DNA of 31,589 nucleotides. It comes from a virus. Position 1 is the first letter of the stretch. Each line of letters begins with the position of its first letter. Positions 4,779 to 15,778 of the stretch are shown here, piece by piece. The stretch is taken from the IMG/VR virus record IMGVR_UViG_3300045946_000205, positions 1 through 31,589 of that record. One strand, written 5' to 3'. The notes below the pieces were generated by a model, which worked only from the letters and a program-made list of their open reading frames with translations, was not told the origin of the DNA and ran no database searches. A program made the translations under genes and the position numbers.

Positions 4779-5003
4779 CTATGCCCCCTTGCTGGTGGCC
4801 GCGAGCCGATAGTTCTTCGGCGTGCTGCTGGCCGCGGCGAGCGCTTGGGCTATCTGCGCGCGGAGGGCCAGACGTTCCTCGAGGCTCGCGCCCTCGAAGG
4901 TGACCGTTCTGTCCTGGAACGTCACGGTCTGGGTGAGCTGCCCCTTCCCGTGGGCGATGATCGCCGCGTCGAGCGTGTCCAGGTCTGCCTGGGTCCAGGC
5001 CAC
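4779..5003 (-). CDS. gpW-like head-tail joining protein
   Basis: This 74-residue protein (MAWTQADLDTLDAAIIAHGK, then VTFQDRTVTFEGASLEERLA) has the size and alternating helix, hairpin, helix pattern of lambda gpW. In gpW a short N-terminal helix, a beta-hairpin ending in a V-x-F motif and a second helix form the head-completion protein that binds the portal after packaging. It starts with GTG directly after the TAG of the preceding small gene (TAGGTG), and the portal follows 12 bases later. Position between terminase and portal is exactly that of gpW in lambda. Sequence similarity judged by eye is modest, and position carries much of the weight. Confidence 0.75.
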   Translation of the reverse strand: MAWTQADLDTLDAAIIAHGKGQLTQTVTFQDRTVTFEGASLEERLALRAQIAQALAAASSTPKNYRLAATSKGA

Positions 5004-5174
5004 CTAGCCCTCGATGATGTTCGCCGCGCCGCAGACCTGGCAGCGCACCACGTGGCGCGCGGGTGCCGGCTCCTCGGGGGCGACCTCGGGTGCGACCACC
5101 GGCGCAAATAGCGATTCCAGCTCGGCGCCGTCCTGTTCCTCGCCCGGCTGCTCGTCCTTGACTTCGTCTTCCAT
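5004..5174 (-). CDS. Small acidic protein with one CxxC
   Basis: This 56-residue protein starts MEDEVKDEQPGEEQDGAELE and ends with VVRCQVCGAANIIEG. The N-terminal two thirds are acidic and Pro/Glu/Ala-rich, probably unstructured. The end carries a single CQVC knuckle, half of a zinc ribbon, which could bind metal by dimerising or with a partner. It lies between the large terminase and the gpW-like gene, 12 bases after terL, and its stop directly abuts the next start. Function is unknown. The tight packing on both sides is the main support that it is a gene. Confidence 0.6.
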   Translation of the reverse strand: MEDEVKDEQPGEEQDGAELESLFAPVVAPEVAPEEPAPARHVVRCQVCGAANIIEG

Positions 5175-5186
5175 CGCGTCCCTCCC

Positions 5187-7118
5187 TTACTTCAGCCATC
5201 CACGTCGGCGCTGTCCCAGCCAGCGCTCGCGCGCCGGCGCGGCCGCAGGTTTCGGTGCAGTACCTGATCCCGGACCACCCCCCGGCGGCGTGTCTCGAGG
5301 CTCTACCGCGCGCTCGAGGGTCGCCCAGTCCGACTCGGCGAACCGGTCGAGCCCGCAGAGCGCGGCCGCGGCGCGCGCGTAGACCCGCGCGTCGAGCGCA
5401 TGGTTCTCCCGCCCCGGGACGAGCTCCCACTCCAGTCGCATGAAGCCGGTCCGAGTCTTCCGGGTGACGAGATGCTCGGCCGTGATCTGCCGGAAGAACT
5501 CGTCGTCATACTGCGGGAAGTGGCACCAGCCCGGCGGCCAGGGCTCCTCGTCCAACGGGCCCTCGAGCTGGAGCCATCCGTAGAGCTCGCTCTTCGCGAT
5601 CGCGCCGTGGACCGGCCAGACCTTGTAACCATGGATCGGGCGCCGACCCCGGAGGGTGATGTCGACGGCGGACGGCGCGCCGATCAGGACGCCGCCGCCC
5701 GCCTGCCCCTTCACCGCGATCACGCGGTTCATCGGGTACTTCCGCGCCCAGGTGTAGACCTCCTGCGTGTTGAAGCCCGAGTCTACCGCGAGCATGCGGA
5801 TCGTCATCGCGGCGCCGTCCTCGTGGGTCATCGTGCGCGCAAGCAGCGCGTCGAGGTCCTTCCACGGCCCAGCCTCGAGGTTCGCCGTGTCGCCAGGGAG
5901 GATGCCGTAGTCGATCGACCACGATTCCTTCCCGCGTCCCCAGGCCACGACCTCGTAGACGATCCGGTCCTTCTGCACGTCGGCGCCGGCCGTGAGGAAC
6001 AGGCCACCTCGAGGAACCGTGCCGATCTCGTAGACCTCGCGGCGCTCATAGAGCCGCTGCCAGTCGGGCGCTTCGCCACGCTCCGTCCAGCACTCCGCGA
6101 GGACCGTGTTCGTGAAAACGCGGAACTTCTCCGGGTCGCGGTGAACCTTGACGAAGGCCTCCGCGATCTGACCCCATGAGAGCCAGCCCACCGGCGAGTA
6201 GAGCGCGCTCAGGTGATAGCCGCGCACCCGCGGGTCGGCCTCGGGGTTCTCCGCGCGCCACTCGCCGCGACCGAGCATCGCCGTCTTCTGATGGTTCGCG
6301 ATCGACGCGTCGCACGCCCGGCAGAGATAGACCGCCTCGGAGGGCTGCAGCCCGAGCTTGCTCCAGGCCAGACGCCCGAACTCGAGGGGCTGCATCTCGT
6401 CGCACTTCGGGCAGGGGACGTAGAAGCGCCGCTGGTCCGTCGCGAAGTAGGCGCGCTCGATCGCTGACAGGCCGGCGATGGTCGGGGTGGAGATCTTCGC
6501 CCGCTTCCGTCGCGCGAAGGTGCGCTGCCGCGCCTCGGCCAGGTCGATCGGCGCGCCCTCCCCATCGACATCCGGAGGGTAGGCGTCGATCTCATCGAGC
6601 AGCAGCCAGCGCGCCGGCATCGACCGGAGGCCCACCGCGCTGTTCGCGCCCGTGATGATCAGCAGCCCGCCCATGAACTCCTTCGCGAGCATGCTGTTCT
6701 TGGAGTCGCGGCTGTGGACCTCGGCCACCTTCCCAGTCAACCGCGGCGTGTTCGTGATCAGAGGGTCGACGCGCTGCCGGCTGAACCGCTTCGCGAGCTC
6801 GACCGTGGGCTGCACGATCATCGCCGGCCCTGGGCTGTGGTCGATTAGGTAGCCGAGGCAGTTGAGGAGCGCCTCGGTGCCCCCCACCTGGGCGCCCTTC
6901 ATGAACACGACCTCCTCGACGGACGACGTCGCCGAGAGCGCGTCCATGATCTCGCGCAGGTAGGGCGTCCTCGAGGTCCGCCACGGCCCAGGCTCCGCGC
7001 TCGACTTCATCGGGAGCTGGCGGTAGCGGTCCGCCCACTCGCTCACCGTGATGTGTGGCTCGGGCCGGATCCCCTCCGACCAGCCCTGGCGGACGACCCC
7101 AGCCCGGTTACTCCCCAT
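5187..7118 (-). CDS. terL: Terminase large subunit, lambda gpA type
   Basis: This is the packaging motor ATPase and nuclease. From the ATG at 7118 it has 643 residues. A Walker A-like loop KGAQVGGTE lies at 74-82, a Walker B WLLLDEID at 171-178, and a paired-cysteine zinc site CPKC (236-239) with CRAC (266-269). The nuclease half begins near FLTAGADVQKDRIVYEVVAW, a common gpA-family pattern. The frame is open for another 54 codons upstream, but that stretch is out-of-frame terS sequence of low-complexity Arg/Ser/Pro type. GAGG lies 9 bases before the ATG at 7118, which overlaps the terS stop by 11 bases. The C-terminus is Pro/Gly/Arg-rich. The gpA type suggests cos-type packaging with defined ends. 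Confidence 0.93.
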   Translation of the reverse strand: MGSNRAGVVRQGWSEGIRPEPHITVSEWADRYRQLPMKSSAEPGPWRTSRTPYLREIMDALSATSSVEEVVFMKGAQVGGTEALLNCLGYLIDHSPGPAMIVQPTVELAKRFSRQRVDPLITNTPRLTGKVAEVHSRDSKNSMLAKEFMGGLLIITGANSAVGLRSMPARWLLLDEIDAYPPDVDGEGAPIDLAEARQRTFARRKRAKISTPTIAGLSAIERAYFATDQRRFYVPCPKCDEMQPLEFGRLAWSKLGLQPSEAVYLCRACDASIANHQKTAMLGRGEWRAENPEADPRVRGYHLSALYSPVGWLSWGQIAEAFVKVHRDPEKFRVFTNTVLAECWTERGEAPDWQRLYERREVYEIGTVPRGGLFLTAGADVQKDRIVYEVVAWGRGKESWSIDYGILPGDTANLEAGPWKDLDALLARTMTHEDGAAMTIRMLAVDSGFNTQEVYTWARKYPMNRVIAVKGQAGGGVLIGAPSAVDITLRGRRPIHGYKVWPVHGAIAKSELYGWLQLEGPLDEEPWPPGWCHFPQYDDEFFRQITAEHLVTRKTRTGFMRLEWELVPGRENHALDARVYARAAAALCGLDRFAESDWATLERAVEPRDTPPGGGPGSGTAPKPAAAPARERWLGQRRRGWLK

Positions 7119-7644
7119 GAGCGAGGACCTCCGCCATGGTCTCGAGGGCCTTTCGCAGCTCGTCGTCCAGCCGGGCATGGACGCGCCGGGCGTCGCTCTC
7201 GGCGGCGAGCTCGCCGGCCAGGCGGTCGGGGAGATTGAGCAGGCCGTCGCGAACAGCGCGAGCGCACTCGAACGCTTCACGCCGCGCCTCCTCCGCGAAG
7301 ATGAGCCGACCGCTGCGCTGCTCGTTCGACAGCCGGAGCGCGGCCGCCCGCTCCTCCGCGACGCGGATCTGTACCTGGGTCAGCGTCGGCGCCCCGGAGC
7401 CGTTCGGCGCGGGCTTCGTCGCGCCGGCCGCCCACTTCTGCCTGGCAAGGTCCGGATCCATGATGTACGGCCGCCCGTTCGAGCGTCCGACACAGCCCTC
7501 GAGCCGGCCTGAGGTGACCCCCTTCCGAACCGCTTTCTCGTCGACTCCCACGATCTTCGCGAAGGCGCGGTAGGACAGCCCGGTGGCGCGCTTGGTCCGC
7601 CTGCTGTGGCGCCTGCGCTTCGCCTTGCCGCGGGCGGACGCCAT
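7108..7644 (-). CDS. terS: Terminase small subunit, Nu1-like
   Basis: The 178 residues start with a basic leader (MASARGKAKRRRHSRRTKRA). A helix-turn-helix follows at about 25-60 (GLSYRAFAKIVGVDEKAVRKGVTSG), then KRIxxPxxA-like wording (RPYIMDPDLARQKWAAGA). A long charged helical second half (about 90-175) probably mediates oligomerisation and binding to the large subunit. This is the layout of Nu1/TerS proteins that bind the packaging site. The ribosome site AGGAGAG is 9 bases before the ATG at 7644. It overlaps terL by 11 bases. The name rests on the HTH plus its place directly before terL. Confidence 0.85.
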   Translation of the reverse strand: MASARGKAKRRRHSRRTKRATGLSYRAFAKIVGVDEKAVRKGVTSGRLEGCVGRSNGRPYIMDPDLARQKWAAGATKPAPNGSGAPTLTQVQIRVAEERAAALRLSNEQRSGRLIFAEEARREAFECARAVRDGLLNLPDRLAGELAAESDARRVHARLDDELRKALETMAEVLAHGE

Positions 7645-8183: not shown

Positions 8184-8597
8184 CTATTCGAGCTCGGGGT
8201 TTGAGCCCGACGACCCATCGACCCTAGGTGCTGAAGCACTCGAGGCCGTGATGCTTGCACTTGAAGCGACCCTCCAACGCGAAAGCCCCGGCGGCTCTTC
8301 TTGCCGCACGGGGCTCGCTTGGGTCTCCCGGTCCGAGGCTACGTCTTGGCCGCTCATGATGCGCTCGGCGGCGCGCTTTGACAAGCCCCTTGGTGCAGGG
8401 GGGTAGAGCACCTCCCGCCCAGTGCTGCCCGAGAACCTCATCCCCTGGCAGCGCCCTTCCTTGAAATCGAACTCGATGGAGACCTTCCCGCTGCCTGTCT
8501 TCGAGAGGATCTGGGCGCACCAGCGCTCGAACTCCGAATGCACACGTGCGTCCCGGATCGGGTGCTCTGTGTGTTCCAGCTCGGCGGGTTTACTCAA
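8184..8597 (-). CDS. Hypothetical protein downstream of the adhesin candidate
   Basis: This 137-residue protein starts at TTG (8597), 8 bases after GGAGGG, and overlaps the end of the adhesin gene by 8 bases (TTGAGTAA). Residues 1-75 look folded (HSEFERWCAQILSKTGSGKV, then SIEFDFKEGRCQGMRF). After residue about 100 the sequence becomes Ser/Ala-rich and probably unstructured. No family is recognised. The DNA for residues about 94-105 forms a strong hairpin (8284-8315), which may end part of the transcription before the last 30 or so codons, so the true 3-prime end of this transcription unit is uncertain. Confidence 0.65.
   Translation of the reverse strand: MSKPAELEHTEHPIRDARVHSEFERWCAQILSKTGSGKVSIEFDFKEGRCQGMRFSGSTGREVLYPPAPRGLSKRAAERIMSGQDVASDRETQASPVRQEEPPGLSRWRVASSASITASSASAPRVDGSSGSNPELE
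8284..8315 (-). terminator. Strong GC hairpin, possible weak terminator or attenuator
   Basis: A 12-base-pair stem (7 pairs, one bulged A at 8308, then 5 pairs) closes a 7-base loop. Read on the minus strand, the second arm ends GGGGCTTT, only three T residues before CGCG, so it is a poor intrinsic terminator by T-run standards but a very stable RNA hairpin. It lies inside the 3-prime half of a coding frame, between the surface-protein block and the terminase block. Confidence 0.35.
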
Positions 8598-11577
8598 GGT
8601 TCTCGCCCTCCGTGTGAGAGCCGGTCAGGGATATGGCGCTGCCTCGTGGCCCAGCCAGCGATTGAGCGCTCCCAGTCGGTCCAACCAGCGAGTGACCACT
8701 GGCCGTCACCACATCGCCGAAGAACCACACGCCCAGGAGCTGCAGCGTGCCGAACGCTTCGGCCGAGGGCACGCTGCTCGCACGGATCTGCTGCGAGATG
8801 CGTGCTGTGCCGAATGCCTCGAGGGAGGCGATGCCTCCAGGGACGAGATGTCGCGTGACGCGCGTGCTGCCGAAGACTTCCCCAGAGGGGATGCCCGTGG
8901 GGGAAATGCGCAGGCTGCTGACCTTGGTCGTGCCGAAGGCTTCCCCAGAGGGCACGCTCGAGGGTCGAATCTGCTGGTTCAGCCGAGCCGTGCCGAAGAC
9001 CTCGGCCGACGCAATCCCGGTGGGGACGATCGTCTGGGCTCCGCCCCCTACGCTGACGACGTGGGTCCCGAATGTCTCGCTCGAGGCGATCCCGCTGGGT
9101 CGGATCTGCTGGTTGAGGCGCGCCGTCCCGAAGGCTTCTGCGGAGGCGATCGCGGAAGGACGAATTTGCTGGTTTACACGCGGGGCCCCGAACGCCTCGG
9201 TCGAGCTGATCGCCGAAGGTCGGATCTGCTGGTTGAGCTTCGTTGTCCCGAACGCTTCAGCGCTGGTGATGGAGCTCGGCGTGATTGTTTGGTTGGCCCC
9301 GGCGACGGAGACGATGGGCGTGCCGAAGGCCTCAGCGGAGGCGATGGCACCCGGGCGGATCTGCTGGTTGAGCCTGGCTGTTCCGAAGGCCTCAGCCGAG
9401 TCGATCCCACTGACTCGGACCTGCTGCTGTACCTTCGCCGTGCCGAAAGCCTCGGCGCTCGCGATGCTGCTGACCGTGATGGTCTGGGGCGCGAGCACGG
9501 TGGCCGCGCCGAAGGCCTCTCCGCTCGCGATCCCGCCTGGCCTGATCTGCTGGTGGACCGCCGCTGTCCCGAAGGCCTCCGTCGACGAGATGGCGCTCGG
9601 CCTGATCTGCTGGTTGACGCGAGTCGATCCGAAGACCTCAGCCGAGGCGATCCCTGTGCACGCGATCGACTGATTGACGCGCGCGGCGCCGCAGGCTTCT
9701 GCGGAGGCGATCCCGGAAGGCCGAATCTGCTGGTTGACCTTTGCCGTCCCAAAGGCTTCAGCGGAGGCGATGCCTGCAGCGACGACCCTCTGGTTCACCT
9801 TCGCGGTGCCGAACGCCTCGGCGGAAGCAATGGCCGAGGGCGTGATCGTCTGGGGGCTGGCCCCGAAGACGCGCTCGCGGTACTTCAGCCCGCCCGTGTA
9901 GCCGTCGGTGCCGTCCTCGTAGACGTAGCCGAAGACCTTCGCGCCTCCGTTCCCGCCACTGTGCGTGAAGATCTGGCCCGTGATGTTGTGGCAGGCCGTC
10001 GCGTCGAGCTCCTCGACGTCGGTGCCCCATCCCGCCTCGTCCAGGTTGCTGTCGAACCAGATGTCCTCGGTAGTGAGGTCGGCGTAGAGCAGATGGACGT
10101 CCGGGCCGTCGACGGCGATCGTCGCGCAGACTGCGTGCGAAGATCCCTTGTTCCGCTGGATCGTGTTGTCGGTGGCGGCGCTCGACTCAGTGCCGGGCGC
10201 ACCGTCGTTCGTGATGATCCGCGAGTAGAGCTTGCCGTCGCTCTTCGCGTAGATGACGAGCACCTTCTCGGTGCCCGCCTCGTCCCAGTACACCGGCGGC
10301 GTGAGATCGTTGTCGGTCGTGCCCGTGAGCCCGGCTGTGGTCAGGCTCTCGCGCGCGCTGAGCGTATCCGCCGAGTCGAGCGATCGATGCCAGACGTTGC
10401 CAGCGTCGTCGTTGTACGCGATGTGAGACTTGTCGCTGGCCCCGCGCACCACGCCGAGCCCGAGGAAGTTCACGGCCTCGGAATCGAGCTGGATGCGCGA
10501 GCCCCAGGAGCCGCCGTTCGGCTTGATCTTGTAGTAGACCTGGGTGTTAGTGCCGTTGTTGAAGATGTAGAAGGCGACGAGGTCGCCGTCGCCGCGCCGC
10601 ACGATGCCAGCGACCTGCCGCGACGGCACCTGATCCGGGACCGAGTTCGGCTCGATCTCCTCGTCCTTGAGTTCCCACGTGTCCGGGTCCGTGCCGTGGG
10701 TGCTGACGCGGAAGACGTGGTGCCACACGGCGGGCGACTGGCAGTGCAGGATGTAGAGCCGATCGTTTTCGAGGACCGCATCGACCGCTTCTAGGTCGCC
10801 CTTCGTCGGGCGGTTCACGGTGTCGACATCGACCCACGTGTCTCCGCCGTCGGTGCTCTTGCTGACGAGCCAGACGTTGTTCGTCTCGGCGCGTTCGTGC
10901 AGGTAGTAGAGGTTCCCGTTGCCGTCCTTGAAGGGGCCGACCTTGCTCGGCGTCTCGACCAGGGTGCCGCCGATCAGCCCGGCGGGGATGGTGAGCGTGA
11001 CCGCCGGGAGCACGTATGTCCCGGCGAACGGAACATCCGTCTGAACCACCAGACGGAACTCGAAGACGTCGCCGGCGTCGTTGCGCCCGCCATCATAGAA
11101 GCGGCGGATACGCAGGCAGAACTCGAACTCCGTGTGCTCGTTTTGGAAGCCGCTGAGCGTATTGGTGACGCCCGTCTCGGACCCGATGCCCGCCTGGAAC
11201 GTCTTGCCCGAACCGGCCAGCAGGTTCGTGGTCGCATCGAGGTGCGCGTACTGAGCGCTCTCGATGACGGCGACCGCCGGGGTCGACGTCGCGGACGGGA
11301 AGCCAGGCGCGAGGATCTGGCTCCACGGGCCGCCGTTCTTGCGCCACTGAAGGTAGAACTGCTCGCCCGCTCCACCGCGCGCGACGTTGTTGAGTTCCTC
11401 GACCTCGAAGCGGATGCGGAAGTTCGTCTCGGCGTCGATGCTCGCATTGGTATCGAGCGCCGCAGCCCATCCGCTGTCGACGTTCAGCCCGACCGCGTCG
11501 CCGCTGCGGATGCGGAAGTGCGGCTGCGAGTAGAGTGGGGCCGGCGCGAACCCGATCTTGGTTCGGAGCCACGCCAT
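8590..11577 (-). CDS. Large adhesin or tail-fibre candidate with Asp-box and 18 tandem repeats
   Basis: The protein has 995 residues. Residues about 1-210 look like a beta-rich jelly-roll type domain (WAAALDTNASIDAETNFRIR, FEFCLRIRRFYDGG). Residues about 210-570 resemble a sialidase or BNR beta-propeller, with an Asp-box STDGGDTW at 241-248 and propeller-like strands such as YYLHERAETNNVWLVSKS. Residues 576-949 hold 18 near-tandem 20-residue units with consensus QIRPSxIASAEAFGTxxLNQ. The C-terminus (LVGPTGSAQSLAGPRGSAIS) is Gly/Ser-rich. Asp-box propellers bind or cut glycans, and repeats of this kind extend surface proteins, so I infer a receptor-binding virion protein. There is no signal peptide, as expected for a virion part. 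Enzyme activity cannot be judged from the sequence. Confidence 0.85.
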   Translation of the reverse strand: MAWLRTKIGFAPAPLYSQPHFRIRSGDAVGLNVDSGWAAALDTNASIDAETNFRIRFEVEELNNVARGGAGEQFYLQWRKNGGPWSQILAPGFPSATSTPAVAVIESAQYAHLDATTNLLAGSGKTFQAGIGSETGVTNTLSGFQNEHTEFEFCLRIRRFYDGGRNDAGDVFEFRLVVQTDVPFAGTYVLPAVTLTIPAGLIGGTLVETPSKVGPFKDGNGNLYYLHERAETNNVWLVSKSTDGGDTWVDVDTVNRPTKGDLEAVDAVLENDRLYILHCQSPAVWHHVFRVSTHGTDPDTWELKDEEIEPNSVPDQVPSRQVAGIVRRGDGDLVAFYIFNNGTNTQVYYKIKPNGGSWGSRIQLDSEAVNFLGLGVVRGASDKSHIAYNDDAGNVWHRSLDSADTLSARESLTTAGLTGTTDNDLTPPVYWDEAGTEKVLVIYAKSDGKLYSRIITNDGAPGTESSAATDNTIQRNKGSSHAVCATIAVDGPDVHLLYADLTTEDIWFDSNLDEAGWGTDVEELDATACHNITGQIFTHSGGNGGAKVFGYVYEDGTDGYTGGLKYRERVFGASPQTITPSAIASAEAFGTAKVNQRVVAAGIASAEAFGTAKVNQQIRPSGIASAEACGAARVNQSIACTGIASAEVFGSTRVNQQIRPSAISSTEAFGTAAVHQQIRPGGIASGEAFGAATVLAPQTITVSSIASAEAFGTAKVQQQVRVSGIDSAEAFGTARLNQQIRPGAIASAEAFGTPIVSVAGANQTITPSSITSAEAFGTTKLNQQIRPSAISSTEAFGAPRVNQQIRPSAIASAEAFGTARLNQQIRPSGIASSETFGTHVVSVGGGAQTIVPTGIASAEVFGTARLNQQIRPSSVPSGEAFGTTKVSSLRISPTGIPSGEVFGSTRVTRHLVPGGIASLEAFGTARISQQIRASSVPSAEAFGTLQLLGVWFFGDVVTASGHSLVGPTGSAQSLAGPRGSAISLTGSHTEGENLE
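8731..9852 (-). repeat. 60-bp tandem repeat array (18 units) inside the adhesin gene
   Basis: Successive units line up at 60-base spacing and encode x-I-x-P-x-x-I-x-S-x-E-A-F-G-T-x-x-x-N-Q. Units 1, 7, 10 and 14 begin with a QTI form. The unit before each of those restarts ends with a short extra linker (LAPQ, SVAGANQ, SVGGGAQ). This gives four blocks of 6, 3, 4 and 5 units. Units differ at many third positions, so the array is old rather than freshly expanded. Confidence 0.92.
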
Positions 11578-11580
11578 CGG

Positions 11581-12864
11581 CTACACCCTACCGGGCCGCC
11601 AGATGCTCGACCAGGGCTTCGTGCCCTCGTGCGGATTGAGCGGCACCGACGCGGGCCCGAGCATCAGGTAGCCGACGGCGCGCTGCGAGGGGTCCGCATC
11701 GTCCATGATGAGCGTCATGCCGTCGGCGTCGAAGCTCGTCAGATCCATCAGGCCATCGACCGCGTCGCCGCTCTCCGAGATGTACACCTCGTCGTACTCG
11801 ATCGCGCGCGCACACGCCGTGCTGCTGCCCTGGTTGTCGGTGTCGCGCACGAGGATCGCGCCGCGCGCGGACGGCCCCGCCGCCGCGCCGATGGTCACGA
11901 GGCTGTGGTCGGTCGGAGTGTCAGCCGCGCTCTCGGCCTGTCCGACCGAGGCGAACAGGGCGGCCGACGGCTCGAAGCCGGAGTCCGTGACGGAGATCGA
12001 GGTCGTGGTGTTCGTGAGCGTCTGGAGCACGCCTGCCCGGAAGCCGCCGCCGCGCATCGCGAGGTAGAAGTTCCACGTCGAGGTGCCGCCGACCTCGCTC
12101 CAGTTGAGGCGGAAGCCGTTGGACAGGAACGCGGCGATCGCGGTGTGCGCCTCAAGCGATGTCGCCGCCGCGTTGAATCCTGCGAGGCATTCGCCGCTGC
12201 GCAGGAAGCGCATGGTCTGGGTCACGCCGAGGGCGACTCCGGTGTTGCCGTCGACGGCGAGCGCCCACTGGTTGAGCGCCGAGTCGCACACTCCGAATCC
12301 CCAGCACGAGTCCTGCACGTTGTCTGGCGGCACGTTCACGCTGCGCCCGGCCTTGGCGAAGATCACGCACGTCGGCTGGAACCCGACGTCCGTGATGTCC
12401 TGGGTGCCGGCGGCCGTTGGCGTCTGGAACGAGCCGATGGCGGCCTCGATCAGGTCGGGGCCCCCGATCGCGAGGTAGTGGACGCGCAGGTCGATCGGGA
12501 ACTGGTCGTCGATCACCGCAGTGAACCCGTCGCTGTCGAAGCTCTGGATGTCGAGCGCGCCGTCGATCGCGGCTGTCGCGCTGTTGACGACGACCGCCAC
12601 GTCGCTGTAGCTAGAGCGGCACAAGGTGGTCGCCACGCCGTGGTCGCTGAACCCATTGACGCAGCGCCGCGCGCTCGGGCCCGTGGCGAACCCGAAGCTG
12701 CCGCGATAGTCCGCAGCCTCGATGCCGTCGCTGCCGCTAGCGTGGCCCGACGCGAAGAACAGCACCACCTTCGGGGCGAAGCCGAACCCGGACTCGGCCT
12801 TCGTCGTCCCGTTCGTGTCGGACGACAGGATAGAGATGGTGCCGAATTTCGAGAGAAGGGCCAC
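11581..12864 (-). CDS. Virion-like protein of three tandem domains
   Basis: This 427-residue protein has no signal peptide and contains three diverged copies of a domain of about 130 residues. Each begins with a GFxPxxxxFxxxG block (GFAPKVVLFFASG at 28, GFQPTCVIFAKAG at 161, GFEPSAALFASVG at 296). Each ends with a hydrophobic YLA/YLM strand (YLAIGG at 130, YLAMRGG at 267, YLMLGP at 399). Copies one and three also share a SFDxDGxTxxxDD block near 108 and 377. The domain is beta-rich and resembles surface proteins of phages, though I cannot name a family. It lies 12 bases after the preceding gene and just before the adhesin candidate, so a tail tip or fibre role is inferred. Confidence 0.8.
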   Translation of the reverse strand: MALLSKFGTISILSSDTNGTTKAESGFGFAPKVVLFFASGHASGSDGIEAADYRGSFGFATGPSARRCVNGFSDHGVATTLCRSSYSDVAVVVNSATAAIDGALDIQSFDSDGFTAVIDDQFPIDLRVHYLAIGGPDLIEAAIGSFQTPTAAGTQDITDVGFQPTCVIFAKAGRSVNVPPDNVQDSCWGFGVCDSALNQWALAVDGNTGVALGVTQTMRFLRSGECLAGFNAAATSLEAHTAIAAFLSNGFRLNWSEVGGTSTWNFYLAMRGGGFRAGVLQTLTNTTTSISVTDSGFEPSAALFASVGQAESAADTPTDHSLVTIGAAAGPSARGAILVRDTDNQGSSTACARAIEYDEVYISESGDAVDGLMDLTSFDADGMTLIMDDADPSQRAVGYLMLGPASVPLNPHEGTKPWSSIWRPGRV

Positions 12865-13352: not shown

Positions 13353-14105
13353 CTACCTCCTCCTCGGGATCGATGCCGGCGGCACTCGCCGGAAGCTCTT
13401 GCGGAACGGGTGCGTCAGGCCGAACCAGGGCGGCTGCACCGTCACGATCGTGGGGTCGCCAAAGGCTTCCGCGCTGGCGATCGCGCCGGGCGCGACGCGG
13501 AGCTTGAAGTCGGCCGTCACGATCCGCGTGCCGGCGCTCGACGAAGAGCCCGTACGGAAGTGCATGTCGGATGTCGCCATGCCGCCGGCCCCGGTGCGCT
13601 CCCAGGCAATCTGGATGAAGAGGTGCTGGCCCAGGATGGTGAACGCCCCTGGGTTGAACGCGAGGTTCGAGTCGAAGTCGGCGGACGTCGACACGTTCGA
13701 CACGAGCGCGCCCTGCTGCTGCGCCCCCGTGATCTCTACAGCGTTCGAGCCGTCCGCGTCCGCGCGGATGATGCGGAACCGCACCCGCCCGTCCTGGGCC
13801 CCGCCGTTCGTGATCGCGCGCATCACGAAGTGGAAGTCCCAGCTCGCGCTCGCGAAGTCGCCGCTGAGCGGGTTCTCTGAGCGGAAGGCGTCGTTCAGCG
13901 TGGCGTCGAGCGAGCCGTCGGGCGGGCCGGTGCCGGCGAACGTCGAGGCCGCGCGCTCCGCGCCCTCCTCGAACTCCGAGTGGTTCGTCGAGCCCGTGCC
14001 GACCACCCAGCCGGCTGCGATGGTGGCGGCGCTCTGCGTCGATTCAGAGAGGCGCTGCCACCCGGCGTCGGCGGCGTCCGCGAGGAAGAAGGAAAGCGCC
14101 GCCAT
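13353..14105 (-). CDS. Beta-rich surface protein carrying one EAFG repeat unit
   Basis: This 250-residue protein starts MAALSFFLADAADAGWQRLS. It looks like a single jelly-roll type beta domain (WDFHFVMRAITNGGAQDGRV, HLFIQIAWERTGAGG). Near residue 216 it has one copy of the adhesin repeat (APGAIASAEAFGDPTIVTV), followed by a Pro/Arg-rich end. The copy matches the block-ending form of the repeat in the 995-residue protein. The N-terminal domain also resembles the first domain of that protein in strand pattern. Start and stop are tightly packed: its ATG overlaps the previous stop as TGATG. I infer a virion surface protein related to the adhesin. Confidence 0.8.
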   Translation of the reverse strand: MAALSFFLADAADAGWQRLSESTQSAATIAAGWVVGTGSTNHSEFEEGAERAASTFAGTGPPDGSLDATLNDAFRSENPLSGDFASASWDFHFVMRAITNGGAQDGRVRFRIIRADADGSNAVEITGAQQQGALVSNVSTSADFDSNLAFNPGAFTILGQHLFIQIAWERTGAGGMATSDMHFRTGSSSSAGTRIVTADFKLRVAPGAIASAEAFGDPTIVTVQPPWFGLTHPFRKSFRRVPPASIPRRR

Positions 14106-14290
14106 CAGTCATCGTAGAAGCGCGTGATCGGGCTTCGGAAGCCCTGGAGCCAGTAGCCCAGACGTCGCCACCAGGGCAGTTGATGCCACCACACCTCATC
14201 CCACAGGAGCGCGAGGTGCTGCTCCACCAGCCGCACGCGCGCGGACGGGTCGAGATCATCGCGCTCCCGAATTGGATGGGGGCTGTTCAT
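14105..14290 (-). CDS. Small tryptophan-rich hypothetical protein
   Basis: This 61-residue protein starts MNSPHPIRERDDLDPSARVR. The C-terminal half is amphipathic and rich in tryptophan (LLWDEVWWHQLPWWRRLGYW), which could bind a membrane surface or pack against a partner. The ATG overlaps the upstream stop as ATGA and the TGA overlaps the next start as TGATG. Both junctions support a real coupled gene. No family is recognised. Confidence 0.65.
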   Translation of the reverse strand: MNSPHPIRERDDLDPSARVRLVEQHLALLWDEVWWHQLPWWRRLGYWLQGFRSPITRFYDD

Positions 14291-14697
14291 GCTCCGATGT
14301 CGCCGAGCTTCTCCTCGCTCTCGATGCCGCCTGGGCGGATGGTCTGGGTCGGGCCGACCGGCACTCCGTTCACCAGGGTCGGCGTGCCGACCACCGACTG
14401 GCTCTCGATCGAGGGCAGGTTCGAGCGCCTGATCTCGCGATCGAACTGCGCGATCTTGCGCGCCTCGTGCAGGATCTCGGGGTTGCTGGTCAGGCCGAAG
14501 GGCATGCCCGCGCGCGAGACGACCGCCTGATCCCTGGCGATCATCGCCGCCTTCGAGATCTCCTCGGCCTGCCGCGCCTTCACTCGAATGGCGGACGCCA
14601 CGTGGAGCGCTGCGTCCCACGGGAGATTCGCGACGAGCTTGTCGTTCATCAGGATCAGCACTCGCGTGCCGTCCTGCCGGATGCTCATGTGGGCCAT
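14287..14697 (-). CDS. Hypothetical protein ending in one EAFG-like repeat
   Basis: This 136-residue protein has a mixed alpha/beta N-terminal part (MSIRQDGTRVLILMNDKLVA, AIRVKARQAEEISKAAMIAR). Its C-terminus, PTQTIRPGGIESEEKLGDIG, matches the block-starting form of the adhesin repeat (QTI.P..I.S.E..G) with KL in place of AF. It has no signal peptide. The repeat links this protein to the two larger surface proteins downstream, so it may assemble with them. It ends with an ATGA overlap to the next gene. Confidence 0.75.
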   Translation of the reverse strand: MAHMSIRQDGTRVLILMNDKLVANLPWDAALHVASAIRVKARQAEEISKAAMIARDQAVVSRAGMPFGLTSNPEILHEARKIAQFDREIRRSNLPSIESQSVVGTPTLVNGVPVGPTQTIRPGGIESEEKLGDIGA

Positions 14698-14700
14698 GCG

Positions 14701-15108
14701 CTAGAGCTTGAAGATCCGGTTGGAGCCCGAGTCCCACTGAACCGTGATGTCCGCGCCGTTCGGCGTGCACGGCAGCCCCGTCGCCGTGTCGATCGCCGCG
14801 ATCAGCCTGGACGTGCCCTCCGTGCCGGTGTGCGCGTAGATCACGATCGCCTCGAACTGGTCGCCCGAGACGCTCGCCACCACTACGTCGGCCGCGTCCG
14901 CCACGCCCGCCGTCTTGGTCTTCGACGCGAACGAGCCGCTCGTCGCCACGCGCGCCGCCGCCGCCACGTCGTCGAGGAAGTCGTCGGTCGCGAGGTTGAT
15001 CGTGTCGTCCGCGTTGTCGTGGAAGATCAGCCGAATATCGTTCGCGTCCCAGTCGATGTCGCCGCCGAGGAATCCCTCGCGGCCCGCGTCATACAGAGCG
15101 TTCGCCAT
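14701..15108 (-). CDS. Conserved phage structural-type protein
   Basis: This 135-residue protein starts MANALYDAGREGFLGGDIDW, followed by LATDDFLDDVAAAARVAT. It ends in a strand-rich GTSRLIAAIDTATGLPCTPN and DITVQWDSGSNRIFKL. I recall this pattern from uncharacterised proteins in tail or fibre regions of diverse phages. Molecular role is unknown. The frame extends 18 codons further upstream, but the ATG at 15108 fits the family N-terminus and lies just after the preceding stop. Context with surface proteins suggests a virion part. Confidence 0.8.
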   Translation of the reverse strand: MANALYDAGREGFLGGDIDWDANDIRLIFHDNADDTINLATDDFLDDVAAAARVATSGSFASKTKTAGVADAADVVVASVSGDQFEAIVIYAHTGTEGTSRLIAAIDTATGLPCTPNGADITVQWDSGSNRIFKL

Positions 15109-15112
15109 CTCC

Positions 15113-15778
15113 TTAGCCCTCCAGTGAGCCTGCGCCCCGCGCGCCGGCCTCCGACATGGCATCCCGCACGGCTAGCGCGACTGCCTGACGCAGGTCGTCG
15201 CGCGCGGCGCCCAGGCCCTGCGTGACCTGGCGCGTGACCTCACTGGCGAGTACCTGCGTCTTGTCCGCCAGGAACTGCATCGCGAGATCCTGGTGCTCGT
15301 CGATGCGCTGCATCAGCTCGCGTCGGTGCGCGGCCAGGTCCTTCTGCGCCTCGACGCGCGCCGTGCCCAGGGCGTCGCGAAGCTCCCTGTCCGCGCGCTG
15401 GAGCGCCTCGAGTTGCGTTTCGATCCGCGTGAGGCGGTCGCCGTTGACCGCGACGTCGGGCCCGGGAGACGCGGGCTCGCCGTTGCGCTCGTTCTTCCGC
15501 GGGATGTACTTCCCCAGGGTCGCCAGCGCCTCGCCCATGGTCTTGGTGATGACGACGATGAGGGCGCCGAGGGCCGCGAGAACGCCGACGAGGATCGTTA
15601 CAACCTTCATGTCGCCCTCGGGCAACACATCGGTCGCCGCGTAGGCGGTCAGCCCGATGATCGTGCTCGCGCCGAAGCCGACGATCTTCGTCTTCCCGGT
15701 CTTGCGCTTGAGCCCGGCACGCAACGGGTGCGGCCACGTGGCGCGCCAAGCGGCCAGGCGCTCGCGGAGCTCGTTCAC
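15113..15778 (-). CDS. Membrane protein with two TM segments and coiled coil
   Basis: The 221-residue product starts at a GTG (15778) overlapping the upstream stop as GTGA. Two hydrophobic segments lie at about 31-50 (KIVGFGASTIIGLTAYAATD) and 57-78 (MKVVTILVGVLAALGALIVV). A heptad-rich, charged coiled coil follows at about 112-185. The same frame continues upstream through the neighbouring holin-like gene as low-complexity sequence, which I discount. Next to a holin-like gene, a lysis role such as holin, spanin-like connector or antiholin is possible. A membrane-puncturing injection protein is the other option. No family is recognised. Confidence 0.7.
   Translation of the reverse strand: MNELRERLAAWRATWPHPLRAGLKRKTGKTKIVGFGASTIIGLTAYAATDVLPEGDMKVVTILVGVLAALGALIVVITKTMGEALATLGKYIPRKNERNGEPASPGPDVAVNGDRLTRIETQLEALQRADRELRDALGTARVEAQKDLAAHRRELMQRIDEHQDLAMQFLADKTQVLASEVTRQVTQGLGAARDDLRQAVALAVRDAMSEAGARGAGSLEG

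Follow-up and report, generated by a model that had tools for sequence, protein, structure and literature searches.

A widespread 20-residue repeat of phage tail proteins, present as an 18-unit array in an IMG/VR virus, and its genomic link to phrog_644

Introduction

Many tail fibres are trimeric, and triple beta-spiral fibre shafts are built of short repeats that comprise strands, turns and variable loops. The tail wing of phage Bxb1 (PDB 9d93) has an arm, gp31, and a brush, gp33, the latter described as containing polyproline-II bundles (PMC13243192). In a cryo-EM study of Corndog and two further mycobacteriophages, neither a repeat nor a wing protein is described, and the words "repeat" and "wing" are both absent from the text. 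The closest counterparts of the repeat described here occur in mycobacteriophage minor tail proteins (phrog_13352, phrog_553 and phrog_8501), namely Marvin gp88, McProf 72, Konstantine gp36 and Brujita gp24. These proteins carry approximately 5-8 units, placed N-terminally between a W-rich start and further domains, or standing alone (Brujita gp24).

Here, we analyzed a viral DNA of 31,589 nucleotides (IMG/VR record IMGVR_UViG_3300045946_000205, positions 1 to 31,589; hereafter the window). Its array protein has the unit, the spacing of 20 or 22-23 residues and the phrog_644 neighbour in common with the mycobacteriophage proteins, whereas its 18 units lie C-terminally on a different, possibly propeller-bearing protein. 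No relatives of the first 575 residues were found in viral contigs; given this and the different position of the array, what is shared is a module and not a full-length family. A similar situation exists in Virus Rctr197k, whose protein 090 has five SAEAFG/TGEAFG-type units and, as in the window, a phrog_644 homologue at the same locus, although its array is N-terminal in a 412-codon reading frame. Through the window's array, a repeat module found in many phages becomes accessible to study and is linked to a protein whose place on a mycobacteriophage tail has been solved.

The array and the protein that carries it

An earlier note on this DNA, made from the sequence alone, had described 18 copies of a 20-residue unit at 60-base spacing with a few short linkers, and our motif scan bore this out (Table 1). 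Among the 17 unit-to-unit spacings (20, 20, 20, 20, 20, 22, 20, 20, 25, 20, 20, 20, 25, 20, 21, 20 and 20 residues), 13 correspond to exactly 60 bases, the remainder being due to linkers of 2, 5, 5 and 1 residues after units 6, 9, 13 and 15. Independently, four stretches with a period of 60 were called by Tandem Repeats Finder, scoring 133-158 at 69-72% match. The consensus of the 18 units is xTIxPSGIASAEAFGTxxLN, and the units share on average 57% of amino acids and 61% of nucleotides. The IxSxExFG core recurs at a spacing of 20-25 residues, and the phrog_13352 profile matches the protein through the repeat in five stretches (E 2e-75). The proposed blocks of 6, 3, 4 and 5 units, each opening with QTI, were recovered, except that the last block is also split after unit 15, where unit 16 opens with LRI behind the 1-residue linker. 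The three short SLxGPxGSA-type repeats that follow the array (8593-8733) are unrelated to the 20-residue unit.

Table 1 Position of the array gene, its parts and other genes discussed in the window.
Feature	Coordinates	Strand	Basis
Tail adhesin candidate bearing the array, 995 aa	8590..11577	-	ORF; phrog_13352 "minor tail protein", E 2e-75
N-terminal region, residues 1-205, beta-rich by eye	10963..11577	-	Without Pfam or PHROG match
Possible beta-propeller, residues 206-575	9853..10962	-	One Asp-box; ~7 W/Y-rich repeats by eye
18-unit array, residues 576-948	8734..9852	-	Motif scan; Tandem Repeats Finder; unit alignment
C-terminal tail with three short SLxGPxGSA-type repeats	8593..8733	-	Read from translation
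Terminase large subunit	5187..7280	-	GpA_ATPase and GpA_nuclease, E 1e-91 and 2e-90
427-aa protein of the same gene run, directly upstream of the array gene	11581..12864	-	No family match
157-aa protein of the same gene run, homologue in array locus L078	12877..13350	-	phmmer E 5.5e-16
250-aa protein, ~200-aa domain then one unit	13353..14105	-	phmmer, blastp, unit counts
136-aa protein, folded beta/helical domain 1-91 and tail 92-136	14287..14697	-	Alignment, AlphaFold
phrog_644 protein, Bxb1 gp31 homologue	14701..15162	-	phrog_644 E 3e-39; PDB 9d93_Ra E 1.5e-13

The suggestion that the array is attached to an Asp-box propeller did not hold in that form. There is a single canonical Asp-box (residues 241-248), BNR_2 stays below its cut-off (E=0.18, 11.5 bits against 31.4), and residues 206-575 have no sequence match in the PDB. 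About seven Trp/Tyr repeats of approximately 55 residues can be recognized by eye in the same region, and on this reading and the one Asp-box a propeller is plausible only. A tail adhesin context for the protein, by contrast, was supported: PHROG classifies the array family as "minor tail protein", other arrays are carried by lectin-type and baseplate-wedge proteins, and genes for terminase, portal and capsid are present in the window.

Unit-type sequences are also found in two further proteins of the same gene run. The 250-aa protein has a single unit, APGAIASAEAFGDPTI, at about 13440-13502, and the tail of the 136-aa protein contains two unit-type motifs. An alignment of 16 members of the latter family showed that the tail motif LRRYxPGGIxSxExxGxPTxI is conserved. 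The next gene encodes a protein that matches the "Tail wing arm, gp31" of Bxb1 (PDB 9d93_Ra) by sequence, and reading of the gene run revealed no gp33-like brush protein.

Distribution of the unit in phages

Searches with tblastn detected the unit in 40 phage records, mycobacteriophages accounting for 39, and a pattern scan of IMG/VR gave 216 stretches with a confirmed unit, of which the best 80 were analyzed as array loci. No Pfam family matched the unit, which PHROG places under phrog_13352 "minor tail protein"; the profile of this family matched 68 of 70 array proteins. A description of the repeat was not found in the literature searched, where a text match to SAEAFG was unrelated. The module is widespread in phages, has no Pfam family and lacks a description in that literature.

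The consensus of 819 distinct units has the core I-x-S-x-E-x-F-G, with P-x-G before it and a T-P/A-x-hydrophobic strand after it. The conservation of S10, E12 and G15 arises partly by construction because the search pattern required, or nearly required, these residues. Hydrophobic positions alternate (17, 19, 1, 3 and 5) and the P/G turns are conserved. Units are spaced by 20 (518 cases) or 22-23 residues (247 cases), and the extra residues of the longer spacings sit between positions 19 and 3, as if the turn there came in two lengths. Variants of the core exist: M. abscessus prophages have SRVAVG in place of SAEAFG (hhalign E 2e-13), and Brujita has SSASVG (2e-5 by hhalign and 1e-8 by profile search).

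Arrays with at least 3 strict units range from 4 to more than 76 units, the longest leaving the contig end. Lectin-type Laminin_G_3 domains are present in 11 of 70 array proteins, and baseplate-wedge and Ig domains in one each; minor-tail domains are fused to arrays as well. The longest array (>76 units, >2150 aa, with a LamG-like start by eye) belongs to one phage (L049, L050, L063 and L064) and reaches the end of the examined stretch in all four assemblies. Many viral contigs probably end in long arrays. Arrays were also seen in bacterial genomes, presumably in prophages, including a Rhodospirillaceae MAG (L143) and two Pseudonocardia genomes (L144 and L145); in the latter two, the sequence behind the array resembles a tail hub by eye.

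Block structure and unit number

The earlier note had taken the block layout to imply nested duplication of blocks as well as of single units, and the codons argue against this. Unit columns with the same amino acid use the same codon in 50.3% of cases, against an expectation of 51.7% from the array's own codons (z -0.6) or 47.7% from the rest of the window (z 1.1). Units at homologous positions of the blocks reach 55% codon identity, where 51.6 +/- 3.3% is expected. Synonymous sites are thus randomized, and the units of the window retain no memory of any duplication. Furthermore, the association of an opening T with a preceding linker is a general rule, observed in other, unrelated arrays (34% after a linker versus 14% without, p 7e-8). 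A loop constraint is the better reading of the blocks. Recent copying between units 3 and 12, the best of 153 pairs, was not significant (P 0.29). Codon diversification against recombination was considered as well and dropped, since the apparent deficit (0.503 versus 0.637 with the codons of the gene's N-terminal part) disappeared with wider codon usage and with the array's own pool.

It had further been proposed that the length of the array can change by recombination. This stood for the family. The domain of the 250-aa protein in the window, which precedes one unit, is homologous to domains followed by at least 7 units in L068 (7 strict, about 14 by eye) and 25 units in L076, with 49% identity to the start of the former and 26% to that of the latter (phmmer, blastp). 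All but one of 19 M. abscessus prophages have 8 units (established by motif count in 17 and by reading in L164); the exception, L166, has 6 where L148 has 8. In L166, 135 bases are absent between two 40-base repeat copies located in units 1 and 3, and the flanks of the deletion are 99.8% and 96.8% identical; as this junction is confined to one contig (a single assembly), assembly collapse is possible. Rapid variation, on the other hand, was not borne out, as near relatives keep their number: 5/5/5 in Marvinvirus, 12/12 in L059/L062, 9/9 in L055/L056 and 5/5 in L071/L072. Array length does change by recombination in the family, slowly, and such change is not visible in the array of the window. 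We also observed a 9-base tandem insertion in L166 (within 4840-5260), in the unit after the two-unit loss.

Association of arrays with phrog_644

Of 37 whole array contigs, 32 encode phrog_644, against 0 of 13 control contigs (Fisher 2.4e-8), a p value that overstates independence because the controls, chosen by the window's terminase and several of them fragments, are interrelated through that terminase. Three of the five array contigs lacking it (G029, G036 and G037) are fragments of one phage, and it is present in the longer contig G035 of that phage. No arrays were detected in the terminase relatives of the window. Within the fetched stretches, phrog_644 occurred at 69 of 91 array loci, and all 71 pairs of array and phrog_644 lie on the same strand with a median gap of 439 bp. 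It also accompanies the SRVAVG variant in 19 of 19 M. abscessus prophages.

Nevertheless, phrog_644 does not need the units, since four of seven sampled records (Pari, Thibault, vB_PaeP_E220 and Pam2) have it without a detectable array; the protein of Pari (Fromanvirus) is very like the PDB 9d93 chain. No natural fusion of a unit with phrog_644 was found. Position 13 of phrog_644 is a near-invariant R in array phages and R or K in array-less phages, and its retention without arrays means that it is not an array-specific signature. A search for compensatory changes between unit and phrog_644 yielded two variant lineages only and, with R/K13 also present in array-less phages, allowed no conclusion. 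In one of these lineages, the SRVAVG-bearing loci L016-L019, phrog_644 departs at two otherwise near-invariant positions, with R13 changed to Y and F136 to G; being a single lineage, this is a lead and not evidence. The link between array and phrog_644 is genomic, not physical.

Structure prediction and possible function

AlphaFold modeling of six units with an 80-row alignment gave repeated short strands and no confident fold (pLDDT 53, pTM 0.39). A Foldseek search with this low-confidence model returned nothing significant (best E 0.3-1.3), and fold searches with so weak a model carry no meaning. For the 136-aa protein, the domain was predicted with a pLDDT of 90-97 and the tail with 47-70, without secondary structure. 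Conservation across phages together with a predicted lack of order in isolation is what a docking peptide should show, as should any segment able to fold only in company with another chain.

We tentatively favour a reading in which the array serves as a connector or docking module in a wing-like appendage of the tail and takes up its fold on contact with a second chain, phrog_644 being the likeliest partner. Each unit would place the conserved P-x-G-I-x-S-x-E-x-F-G between two short strands; judging from the spacing and linker statistics, a hairpin-like turn probably forms where these strands reach the following unit. The units may sit at the tail tip as a connecting element of the side appendage; they would be little ordered alone and become ordered on pairing with another chain, putatively the co-encoded "wing arm" protein and possibly other copies of the array protein too. 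More units would give a longer appendage with more contact sites, and cell-surface binding may fall to the attached domain, which is possibly a propeller in the window and lectin-type elsewhere. Low AlphaFold confidence could equally arise if the units formed homotrimeric fibres or were poorly covered in training, and genes of a tail module can adjoin without their products touching; both points weigh against docking. A more specific version, in which every unit is a docking peptide for one phrog_644 wing arm and the array is the phage counterpart of a scaffoldin, unit number (1 to >76) setting the number of arms, seems rather improbable to us. If the units do bind the wing-arm protein, the composition of a class of tail appendages could be read from sequence, including that of M. 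smegmatis phages, which are testable in the laboratory.

Nearly as likely as the docking module is a homotrimeric beta-fibre shaft resembling the triple beta-spiral, with one turn per unit, length setting reach and phrog_644 a mere operon neighbour. The alternating hydrophobic positions with conserved P/G turns fit such a shaft, as do the two spacings with extra residues at one place (strands plus variable-length turns), and failure of a monomer prediction is expected of an obligate trimer. The strong S-x-E-x-F-G conservation is odd for a shaft turn, however, and the single or double units that form C-terminal tails of small proteins cannot form a shaft; these two properties also set the unit apart from the triple beta-spiral, to which no sequence relation was found. 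No sequence relative turned up among the fibres of the PDB, and the Foldseek search with the low-confidence model likewise had no significant match. That the unit might instead be one coil of a single-chain solenoid (a beta-solenoid or leucine-rich-repeat-like fold) forming a rigid rod alone is unlikely. A regular repeat of 20-23 residues could supply one strand and a return turn, and the unit recalls bacterial LRR_5 repeats by eye, but Pfam gave no LRR or solenoid family, folds of this kind normally predict well whereas the pLDDT stayed at 53 with 80 aligned arrays, and Foldseek found no significant match; the likeness was rejected on these grounds. Equally in the unlikely range, and if anything a little lower, we place a length-contingency locus, in which recombination of units or blocks changes unit number and thereby tunes receptor reach. 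The spread from 1 through at least 7 to 25 units on homologous domains and the clean loss in L166 between 40-base repeats speak for it; against it stand the randomized synonymous codons of the window, where even the best pair of units is unremarkable, the fixed numbers among near kin (M. abscessus prophages, Marvinvirus, L059/L062) and the possible assembly collapse at the one L166 junction. Being widespread and almost always encoded beside a relative of the mycobacteriophage tail-wing protein, the unit probably serves as a part that phages reuse in building appendages at the side of the tail, and not as a length switch.

Other repeats at phage loci

Repeats of the GVxATAxVGTLTV type, with approximately 22 residues, occur in L171 (4596-6041) and L173 (4710-5564). 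Their layout is similar to that of the unit by eye, and kinship was not established (hhalign probability 2.4%, L171). In another phage (L027), two proteins (4842-5804 and 415-2868) have a second, different repeat, YDFGDxxQxNEDPTPD, C-terminally behind their unit arrays.
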